Shown: piece by piece, positions 1 through 4,492 of the stretch
Numbering within the stretch: position 1 is the stretch's first letter
How the letters are laid out: each line of letters starts with the position of its first letter
DNA from: Tieghemostelium lacteum
Taxonomy: Eukaryota > Evosea > Eumycetozoa > Dictyosteliales > Raperosteliaceae
Assembly (NCBI GenBank): GCA_001606155.1
Contig: LODT01000048.1
Coordinates: 124,001-188,000 of the forward strand
Length of the DNA stretch: 64,000 nt
Direction: 5' to 3'
Made by a program: the position numbers and the translations under genes
The notes under the pieces: generated by a model
Seen by the model: the letters and a program-made list of their open reading frames with translations, nothing else
Databases searched by the model: none
Told to the model about the DNA's origin: nothing

Positions 1-65
1 TTAAAAAAGAGATTACTAATACTTTTATAAAACAAACTATAATAGTGGTGATTTATATATATTAG

Positions 66-3000
66 CAAAATTAATGCTAGTTAAAGAAGATAAAAGAGTA
101 TACAGAATCAAAGATAAAGCAATGATAAAACTAATGGCAGAAGTATACCAAACTGATTATGATATAATGTTATTGGATTGTGTTGATGGTGGTGATTTTT
201 CAGAGACTGTTAAAAAGTTTTATGAGGAATCAGATACAATGAATATACCAACTAGATCAACACTAACATTGAAACAGGTTGATGACTTTTTAGATAAACT
301 CACAACCATCTCAAAATTCAATGATCAGTTAAAAGCCATAAAAAAAATTATTAGATATTGTACACCATTTGATTGGAAACTCATTTGTAGAATCATTGAT
401 GGTGATCTAAAGATTAACACTGGTGCAAAGTTTTTCTTTGATGGTTTACATCCACTGGCATACCAAATCTTTAAGAATATAAATGATCTTAAAATTGTCA
501 TTGAAAGAATTAAATCTGGTAAAATGGATGGTGATGACAGTGATGATGACAATAACAATAATAATAAGAGTAAAAAATCAACAAAAAAGAAATCAAAAGA
601 TAGTGATGACGATGATGATGATAGTGATAAAGATAAAAAGAAAAAGTCTAGTGGTACAAGTAAGAAATCAAAGGATACAACATTGAAGATTATGACACCT
701 ATAAAACCAATGTTGGCAAAAGCTGTAAAATCAGTTGATGGTGTTATAAAGGCTTGTGGTGACCAGTTTTTTGCAGAGATTAAATATGATGGTGAACGTA
801 TTCAGATTCATAAGGATGGAAAGACTTACAGTTGTTTTAGTAGATCTTTAAAACAGGTTATGCCTTATAAGGTTGATCCTGTGAAACCTTATATCTCAAA
901 ATCAACTCAAGCTGATTCTATTATATTAGATGGTGAAATTCTGTTAGTTGATCATAAGACTAATTTACCTCTACCTTTTGGATCATTGTCAATGCATAAA
1001 AAGAACCAGTTTGCAGATGCTGATGTTTGTGTATTTCTATTTGATATACTCTATCTCAATGGTAAATCTCTTATACATCTGCCATTTAGTGAGAGAAGAG
1101 CTCTTCTAGAAAAGAATGTAAATGTCATAAAGAATCGTATTGAACTATCAGAAATGACTGAGATTAACGGAGAGAAAGAAAAATCAAAACTCAATAATCT
1201 ACTTTCCAGAGCTTTTAAAGAGAAATTGGAAGGCTTGGTAGTTAAAGATGGCAAAGGTTCTTATGAAGCAGGTTCAAGACACTGGATTAAAATCAAAAAG
1301 GATTATCTAGAAGGTATGTCTGATAGTGCTGATTTGGTCTGTGTAGGTGCTTATTATGGTACTGGTTCATTTGGTGGACTTTTGACATCATTTTTAATGT
1401 GTGTCTATGACAAAAAAGATAAAGTCTATAAAACAGTGTGTAAAGTTAGTAGTGGTTTCGATGATAATCAAGTAAAGAAACTTCAAAAGAAACTCTTAGA
1501 TACCATGGTGAAAATCAGTAAGGATCAGAGTAAAGTACCTGGTTGGGTTAGTATCAACAAGACTCAAACTCCTGATTTTATTCTAAAGGATTACAAAGAT
1601 GCTATCATTTTGGAAGTTGAATCTGCAGAATTTACTTTAACCAAACATCACTCTAGTGGTTTCTCAATGAGATTCCCTAGAATTTTAAAACTACGTGATG
1701 ATAAAGATTATAAGACTGCAACTACCTACGAAGAATTAGTAGAATTGGGTAAAGATATTAAGATTGTAACTTTGGATTCTGATGATGAAGATGAAATTAA
1801 ATCTAATATCTATAAAAAGAAAATACTTCCAACTGATACTACAACTACTACTACCACTACAACTACCACTGCTACTAGTGTAATGTCAACTAAAAAATCA
1901 GTTTTGGATAATACTGATTCTGAAGATGAAGATAAATCATTAAAGAAGAAAGTACCAAATGGTACAGCAAATGATGATATCTTTGATAAGATTACCTATG
2001 TATTTGGTGATTTGTTAGATCCATTTGAAGTGGATAGAGAATCAGATATATCTTTGATTTTGAATTTCACTGATAATACAGGAGAGTGGAACGATAGAGG
2101 TGTAAGTGGTGCCATTGGTAAACGTTGGAAGAATGTAATTGAGGAATTTGTAAACTCAAAAATGGATCTTGGTGAATATGTTTGTACAAAAGTTGAAAAT
2201 CCATCCATTTTTGATACTGACAGTGACAAGAAACTGTATGTTTTAAATATATGCTGTATTAGACCTACAAAATCTAAAAAGGTGACATTTAGCTCAAGTG
2301 ATTTCCAAGGTTGTATATCATCAATCATCTCACATTTGAAATCAAAGAAAGCTCAAGCAATATATACATTCAAACCACAGATTCCAGGTGCTGATTGGTC
2401 AGATATCAAACAAGTAATCAATGATAAATTGATAAACAAAGGTTATAAAGTATTTTGTTATTCAAATAAGCCTATAACTACCATTACTAGCAAGGTTGAT
2501 AGTCCAGTTACTACCGATATCCTTCCGATAAAAATGCAAACTGACGATGGTGCAGATCAAAAAGCTACCATAACTAAATCCTCTGATAAAATGGATATCG
2601 ACAATGGTGATAAACCAAAAGATGAAAAGAAGAAAGAAAGTGAAAAAAAGATTAGTTCATCACCAAACGCCAGTAAAAAAAGACAATTAGATGCACTAGA
2701 AGATGAGATATTCTCAGGTGAGAATGAACCAGTACTCAAGGGTGTTAATGCTGTTGTGTGTGATTTAGGTGATGCCAAAAGAAAGAAAACCATTTCAGAG
2801 TTGATAAGAGCTATGGGTGGTGTAGTTTCTGAAGAAATTAAAGTTCTAGGTCTTAAAACTACACATTTGATTTGTGAATCTAAGTGTGATGAATATATCC
2901 ATTTTGATAGAATTGGTGGTCTGATTGTACGACCTGAATGGGTTGAAGATTGTTTTAAACAAGATAGACGTGTATTAGAAGCACCTTTTATCTATACTGT

Positions 3001-3334
3001 CGTTGCAAGTCCAACTAAATCACAAGATAAAAAAGTACGTTTACTTAATATCTTTATGGGATTGACTATATACCTTCAAGAAAACGTAAATGAATTGGAG
3101 ACTCTAAAGAGATATATCGTAGCTTATGGTGGTCAAATTGTAACTGATCAATATCCAAATGATAAAACTACTCACTATATTGTCCCATCTCTAAATCCAT
3201 CTGTAAACATTAATTTGAAACCTCTAAAACTATCCCCAAAACTAACAATCTTAAATTCTCTGTGGATTTGGGATTCTATTAATTTATCTGAACTCTCTCC
3301 AGAACAAGATTATAAAAAAGTTCAAATAAAATAA
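66..3334 (+). CDS. lig3: DNA ligase III with macro domain and two BRCT domains (5' partial)
   Basis: ATP-dependent DNA ligase that seals nicks in single-strand break repair. The exon starts after a splice acceptor (AG at 64-65). The reading frame is open just before the first ATG (74), and the alignable ligase III sequence begins before it, so the true start lies upstream of the window. Counting from that ATG: DNA-binding helical domain about 10-145, an acidic/Lys low-complexity linker 150-200, then the adenylation domain with the KYDGER nucleotidyl-lysine motif (Lys about 237), EGLVVKD (motif IV), HWIKIKKDYL (motif V) and the OB fold to about 570. An ALC1/CHD1L-like macro domain (about 637-797, GDLLDP start and DNTGEW loop) follows. 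Two BRCT domains end the protein (about 884-972 and 988-1080); the ligase III BRCT normally binds XRCC1. Whether a PARP-type zinc finger precedes it cannot be seen. Confidence 0.93.
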
Positions 3335-3548: not shown

Positions 3549-4492
3549 TTAATCATCATCTTCATCAACACCTTCATCATCTTCTTCATCATCATCATCA
3601 TAGTAATCTTCATTATCTTCATCATCATCATCATTATTGTAATCATCATAGTCATCATCAAAAAAGTCCATTGGTTTGTTTAGTAGATGCATTTTCTCAA
3701 CTTGTTTAGCTCTCTCTTGTGGATCGGAATCTGGATGAGGTATTTTAATATGTGATGGTACTTTCTGATTGGCTTTAGTTATCAGAGTTTTGATACGTTT
3801 TTTGTATGCTTCTCTGTCATTTCTCCACTCTACTGATGCATCCACATTGGCAGGTGAAGAGGTATTAGGTGCACTCAATAAACTAATGACACTCAGTATA
3901 ATAGTACTGACTGTCTGTGTTGGTAGCCATCTTTCCTCTGGCAACTCTCCAGAGGTCTCATCCTCACCTGGTGGATGTAAAATACTGATACAAACTTTAC
4001 CATCCATATAAACATTTGGGTGCCAAAATTCTGATAAAAATGTTAAAGTTGGTGGTGACATTGGGTAATCATTTGGAAATTTCATTTGAATTTGAAATAC
4101 TCCTCCTTCACTATTTATCATGATTATAAAATATCAATATTAATATAATTATTTCTAATATAGTTATCATCTCCTATGTTTTTTTTTGTAAACTAGATTT
4201 TTTTTGCTATTTTTAGAATATGTATATCCATCCTACTTTGTACTCCTATATCCAATGTTGTAGTATATTTAAATGATGCTTACTAATCTGTTTCTGGTGG
4301 TCCTTCTACATATGCTCTCCATTCAAATAGGTTTTCATCTACAATCTCAAATGCTACACCCTCTATAGGTTCGCTCTGTATTTCTAAAAAATGATTAAAT
4401 TGTATTAGTATATTCAAAACATGTATATCAAGTTTAAATTTAAACGATGTGTTACTTTTAAATTGATTATTTAGTAGTTTAGAAGCAATCAT
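3549..4492 (-). CDS. Cdc34/Ube2R-type ubiquitin-conjugating enzyme E2
   Basis: E2 enzyme of the Cdc34/UBE2R class, which partners SCF/cullin-RING ligases. Three exons read on the minus strand: 4492-4456, 4383-4284 and 4110-3549. The introns are GTAACA...TTTTAG (72 bp) and GTAAGC...AAATAG (173 bp). The joins restore LLNNQFKKIQSEPIEG and EGPPETDYEGGVF, as expected for the UBC fold, giving 232 aa. The catalytic Cys lies in GKVCISILHPP, followed by the acidic insertion GEDETSGELPEERW that marks Cdc34/Ube2G E2s, and by NTSSPANVDASV. The C-terminus is a roughly 40-residue Asp/Glu-rich tail, as in Cdc34. The gene converges on the ligase gene (214 bp between stops). The N-terminal helix is slightly shorter than in human CDC34. 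Ube2G is the alternative, but the long acidic tail favours Cdc34. Confidence 0.93.

Follow-up and report, generated by a model that had tools for sequence, protein, structure and literature searches.

The DNA ligase III gene and its neighbor

The window analyzed in this study is a stretch of 64,000 nucleotides from Tieghemostelium lacteum (contig LODT01000048.1, positions 124,001 to 188,000), close to the start of which lies the main exon of a gene for DNA ligase III. The exon is covered by a frame of 1,086 codons without a stop (74-3334, +), and the joining of an upstream segment to position 46 onward yields a stop-free protein of 1,143 amino acids (Table 1). The two-exon ligase is a gene model and no transcript was seen, but the choice of splice sites is supported by two matches: the joined N-terminus contains the ligase N-terminal domain PF04675 from profile position 6 (E 1.8e-32), and it aligns to the LIG3 structure 3l2p from residue 12 of the latter, across the new junction.

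The best match in PDB for the catalytic core was LIG3 3l2p (E 6e-136), followed by a fragment of LIG3 (3e-64), an archaeal ligase (9e-55), LIG4 (4e-47) and LIG1 (4e-46), and an identity as LIG1 or LIG4 was set aside on this ranking. Judged by the catalytic core and the LIG3-type BRCT domain, the gene is a DNA ligase III. The motif KYDGER at 782-799 (+) is presumably the adenylation motif. The next gene (3549-4121, -), which we take to be part of a ubiquitin-conjugating enzyme, has a very acidic C-terminal tail.

Table 1. Features of the ligase gene, with positions in the window unless otherwise indicated.
Feature	Position	Strand	Residues	Basis or remark
DNA ligase III exon 1	L002 3810-3952 (upstream, outside the window)			gene model
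Intron between exons 1 and 2	93 bases, ending at 45			gene model
DNA ligase III exon 2	46..3334	+		coding; stop codon 3332-3334
Ligase N-terminal (DNA-binding) domain, part in exon 2	83..451	+	4-126	Pfam PF04675, E 6.7e-24
Nucleotidyltransferase domain	707..1297	+	212-408	Pfam PF01068, E 2.2e-56; best PDB match LIG3
OB-fold domain	1376..1705	+	435-544	Pfam PF04679, E 9.1e-15
Segment linking OB fold and macro domain	1706..1990	+		sequence; later part rich in Asp, Glu, Thr and Lys
ALC1/BT1257-like macro domain	1991..2467	+		profile score, AlphaFold2 model, Foldseek and VIA matches
Asp of GD motif, equivalent of ALC1 D723	2009..2011	+		alignments
Loop GEWNDRG, last Gly equivalent to ALC1 G750	2081..2101	+		alignments
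Ile in place of SCO6735 Gln85 and TARG1 Lys84	2258..2260	+		alignment
Shortened phosphate-binding loop KPQIPGAD	2372..2395	+		secondary structure of the model, alignments
Charged linker	2468..2722	+		sequence
First BRCT domain	2723..2956	+	884-961	Pfam PF00533
Second BRCT domain, LIG3-type	3041..3313	+	~990-1080	Pfam PF16589; LIG3_BRCT PF16759, E 1.1e-15

A diverged macro domain inside the ligase

An earlier, sequence-only reading of this DNA had placed an ALC1-like macro domain at 1985..2465, between the OB fold and the BRCT domains. The four motifs on which it relied are all present there in the translation, and the domain boundaries in our model, at about 1991-2467, are nearly the same. It had also proposed a profile search as a check, and this gave a macro match: a profile of BT1257-like bacterial macro domains scored the ligase domain at 24.8 bits, as compared to 8.1 bits for the best of 5,000 shuffled sequences. 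Out of 592 candidate stretches, 561 proved to be relatives of BT1257 and SCO6735, and the best 80 of them made up the profile, which scored 20.3 bits on the whole ligase and its frame (5,135 sequences scored). In pairwise comparisons, the Smith-Waterman scores of the ligase domain with BT1257 (75) and human ALC1 (63), as well as its score with SCO6735, were reached by none of 500 shuffles each. A phmmer search of PDB (177,635 sequences) listed three distinct sequences, the first two of which were BT1257 (2fg1 and 2afc), with matches over the whole domain at E-values of 0.31 and 0.35. BT1257 itself matches SCO6735 (5e3b, E 7e-53) and human ALC1 (E 3e-12). Viral contigs searched with the macro domain alone and with the whole ligase gave no relative; with alignment A3 as the query, a stretch of an IMG/VR viral contig (L108 3001-3399, +) was 24% identical to the macro domain (E 3e-7 among the candidate stretches).

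Structure prediction, the other check that had been proposed, also returned a macro fold, but only in the model built with bacterial relatives. The AlphaFold2 model made with 31 bacterial rows (pLDDT 86, pTM 0.83) has the three-layer alpha/beta/alpha arrangement of a macro domain and matches the structures of ALC1, SCO6735, TARG1 and BT1257, and macro-domain entries fill the first six of the matches listed by Foldseek and the first 19 of those listed by VIA. The single-sequence model, made without relatives, was poor (pLDDT 49), with no macro domain among the 50 Foldseek matches listed, and the evidence for the fold thus leans on the bacterial homologs.

The failure of the single-sequence model would suit the alternative that there is no macro domain here at all, and that a disordered or unrelated insert resembles one by accident. 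This alternative could also draw on the searches with standard profiles and single sequences. In Pfam, the whole ligase has no family between the OB fold and the BRCT domains and the macro domain alone has only a sub-threshold match to KCTD_C (E 0.092), the lower of the two phmmer E-values is only 0.31, and BT1257 as a single query against the whole genome misses the ligase locus at E <=10 while matching a TARG1-like gene (one candidate scored). However, the silence of Pfam weighs little since BT1257 too, at 18 bits, falls below the 22-bit cut-off of Pfam Macro, and the miss by BT1257 is to be expected for a domain so diverged. A chance resemblance is made unlikely by the profile and pairwise shuffle tests (5,000 and 500 shuffles, respectively), and a macrodomain has been reported independently in the ligase III ortholog of Dictyostelium discoideum (Gunn et al., 2016; PMC5087659). 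We consider an unrelated insert highly improbable, and the sequence comparisons confirm that the domain in the ligase is a real, diverged macro domain.

The presence of a macrodomain in ligase III is not a new discovery, but already known from this sister species. Gunn et al. (2016; PMC5087659) used ADP-ribose-binding macrodomains, such as that of ALC1, as queries and recovered three D. discoideum macrodomain proteins without prior annotation, the ligase among them, while noting that vertebrate DNA ligase III is without one; the protein tested, in the portion of the paper available, was APL rather than the ligase. The macrodomain of the D. discoideum ligase was mentioned again in a review from 2021 (PMC8529158), and its report in the ortholog suggests that the domain has been retained. 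A literature search by title and opening abstract, with subscription journals largely outside its range, found no paper in which the ligase macro domain was put to the test. What we add here is a test of the class, the loss of a catalytic residue, the shortening of the phosphate loop and the apparent lack of a zinc finger.

The class of the macro domain

The assignment to the ALC1-like class made in the sequence-only reading agrees with our results, in that BT1257 and ALC1 are the best sequence matches and the equivalents of ALC1 D723 and G750 are identical. The z scores of the ligase domain were 10.8 with BT1257, 8.5 with ALC1 and 6.9 with SCO6735, as compared to 2.1 and 2.3 with two macro domains from the same genome. 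The first belongs to a stand-alone TARG1-like protein (L005 1384-1884, +, contig C42) with Lys and Asp in the motifs LITK and GCGLD, which we take to be the TARG1 catalytic positions. The second is the C-terminal macro domain (PF01661, E 1e-36) of L003 1-1959 (+, contig C23), which is preceded by repeated segments that, in our judgment, look like WWE domains.

Of 500 shuffles, 23 reached the score with the TARG1-like protein and 13 that with the WWE-macro protein, and an origin from a TARG1-like or a MacroD-like domain was rejected on these grounds. Because no shuffle reached the scores with BT1257 and ALC1, we place the domain near these two. The fold comparison does not separate the branches, since the Z scores of BT1257, ALC1, SCO6735 and TARG1 differ by no more than about two units; BT1257 was absent among the 50 Foldseek matches listed for the AlphaFold2 model. 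By sequence, the ligase domain shares its ancestry with the BT1257/ALC1 branch and is ALC1/BT1257-like rather than TARG1-like.

The pocket and the loss of a catalytic residue

The comparison of the pocket is based on 41 positions that are invariant in the 31 bacterial rows, and on which three modes of MAFFT agree. The ligase has kept 16 of these and changed 25, including N24, D25, G30, K31, Q80, R94, Y95, G122 and G124 (numbering of the BT1257 fragment), whereas ALC1 has kept 23 and changed 18. The pocket is not intact. On the one hand, the Asp and Gly corresponding to D723 and G750 in ALC1 are kept, and ALC1 is a PAR-binding protein in which D723A and G750E are named PAR-binding mutants (PMC7895907). 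On the other hand, the phosphate-binding loop is shorter by about three residues, with 8 residues in the ligase (KPQIPGAD) versus 11 in BT1257 (PRIGCGLAGGK) and ALC1 according to the secondary structure of the model, and its conserved glycines are missing. The glycine motif is IGCG in most bacterial rows and IGHA, with the first of the two glycines only, in ALC1. The ligase thus does not have the full-length glycine loop, a feature that is common to the aligned ALC1-like members although not shown to define the class.

One serious rival interpretation is that the fold has degenerated to a state in which ADP-ribose is no longer bound, and that the domain, placed between the catalytic core and the BRCT domains, has a structural role or binds protein or DNA. 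The shortened loop with its lost glycines and the 25 changed positions are what such a loss would predict, whereas the retention of the Asp on the adenine side and the Gly in loop 1 argues against it, as does the finding that ALC1, which binds PAR, has itself changed 18 of the 41 positions (PAR binding: PMC7895907). We judge this interpretation to be quite credible, at somewhat below even odds.

A second rival is that the domain is an active (ADP-ribosyl)hydrolase, similar to TARG1 or SCO6735, which frees DNA ends or proteins of ADP-ribose prior to ligation. The class is shared with the hydrolases TARG1, DarG and SCO6735, and it evidently tolerates changes, since SCO6735 is active with neither of the TARG1 catalytic residues (PMC9411070). 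A review has moreover suggested that ADP-ribosylated DNA might occur as a reaction intermediate, in analogy to the adenylated DNA of the ligation reaction (PMC7050489). In SCO6735, a hydrolase that uses Gln85 and Asn27, substitution of Gln85 by Ala abolishes the activity and Asn27 is needed for it (PMC9411070). The ligase, by contrast, has Ile at the catalytic position taken by Lys84, Lys80 and Gln85 in TARG1, DarG and SCO6735, respectively, where ALC1 keeps the Gln (Q80 in the BT1257 fragment), so that the pockets of ligase and ALC1 are unlike each other at this site. At the position of Asn27, placed by counting in the fragment, both ligase and ALC1 have Asp. The loop that includes Gly128 of SCO6735 is shortened, Pro or a gap stands in place of the TARG1-like Asp, and the genome encodes a TARG1-like protein elsewhere, which has Lys and Asp at the motif positions. 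We took the position of this TARG1-like Asp to be that of TARG1 Asp125. With Ile at an essential position, Asp instead of Asn27 and a shortened phosphate loop, we have set the hydrolase interpretation aside as improbable. The domain reads as catalytically dead, with binding of ADP-ribose as a possibility.

The apparently missing zinc finger and the PARP-related proteins in the genome

The sequence-only reading contrasted the ligase with animal ligase III, which it described as being brought to PARP sites by its zinc finger and XRCC1; a zinc finger did not turn up in the gene model of the amoeba ligase. This absence is not visible from the window, since exon 1 lies upstream of it. Pfam identified no zf-PARP domain in residues 1-230 of the joined model, in which residue 21 is the first of the ligase N-terminal domain, nor in the protein from frame 74-3334. 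Of the four zf-PARP matches in the genome, none is at the ligase gene, in a search of six frames in which introns were not bridged and an intron-split finger could escape. The primer for the knockout of lig3 in D. discoideum ends, by its description, at nucleotide 49 counted from the start codon, and one frame of it translates to GSFYSMYKLC (PMC5622368), similar to GSLFSMYKLC in the ligase studied here. Because the translated primer matches so near the start codon, both dictyostelid ligase genes seem to start at the same place and without a zinc finger. The usual zinc finger of ligase III looks to be absent in T. lacteum.

In the genome searched (23.33 Mb, 43 contigs), we identified 10 places that match the PARP catalytic domain and three that match Pfam Macro. 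There is one match to XRCC1, in a protein with two BRCT domains, and the usual XRCC1 route to the ligase thus seems to be available. The strongest zf-PARP match is located in a protein of 805 residues (L106 852-3269, -, contig C11), which also contains a uracil-DNA-glycosylase-like region, an FHA-like region and a PBZ finger, with the UDG and FHA regions below the Pfam cut-offs. This protein is possibly a base-excision enzyme that combines the sensing of breaks with the reading of PAR.

A candidate ADP-ribose reader within a repair ligase

We favor the hypothesis that the domain is a non-catalytic ADP-ribose reader, and we assign it a probability of roughly 0.5. Such a role is plausible given the residues retained: the ligase still has the counterparts of ALC1 D723 and G750, and the position of Asn27 is Asp, as in the reader ALC1, and no hydrolysis is expected because the Gln85/Lys84 position is Ile. 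In this scheme, a diverged ALC1-like macro domain between the OB fold and the two BRCT domains of the dictyostelid ligase III would bind ADP-ribose or a PAR chain end but leave it uncut. The binding could then keep the ligase at those breaks that PARP enzymes have marked, and this recruitment may work alongside the route via XRCC1 and the LIG3-type BRCT domain. Several observations weigh against a reader. Fewer invariant positions are kept than in ALC1 (16 versus 23 of the 41), the phosphate loop is shortened and without its glycines, the Gln of ALC1 is Ile, and the AlphaFold2 model depends on distant bacterial rows. Furthermore, the loss of lig3 in D. discoideum did not alter the tolerance to PARP inhibitors in the strains tested (PMC5622368; review PMC8529158).

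A more speculative extension, which we think is rather unlikely, is that the dictyostelid ligase III has swapped the zinc finger that senses DNA ends for an ADP-ribose reader in cis with an altered, more open phosphate site. The product of PARP would then steer the ligase to the breaks, with a ligand that is perhaps not the plain end of a PAR chain, for example ADP-ribosylated DNA, and the zinc finger would now reside on the repair protein with UDG-like, FHA-like and PBZ regions.

If the domain does bind ADP-ribose, dictyostelids would have a repair ligase that detects the PARP signal by itself and need not depend on XRCC1 and a zinc finger. If true, this would represent a natural test of how far the recruitment of a ligase can be coupled to PARP signaling within a single protein.

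Comparison with known systems

The closest known system is the ligase III of D. discoideum, which is likewise from a dictyostelid and likewise contains a macrodomain, and for which the available part of the original report gives neither a subclass nor pocket residues (Gunn et al., 2016; PMC5087659). The macro domain of human ALC1/CHD1L (7epu, 9t4v) is located in a chromatin remodeler, whereas that of the ligase is located in a repair enzyme. The bacterial ALC1-like proteins BT1257 (2fg1/2afc) and SCO6735 (5e3b) are single macro domains, with solved chains of 148-157 residues. Human DNA ligase III (3l2p) has the DNA-binding, nucleotidyltransferase and OB domains and the LIG3-type BRCT domain in common with the amoeba enzyme. 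The latter has a macro domain and an additional BRCT domain and is without a detected zinc finger, whereas the reverse is true of human LIG3, which has an N-terminal zinc finger and, in LIG3 alpha, one BRCT domain fewer than the two encoded at 2723-3313 (+) in the amoeba ligase.
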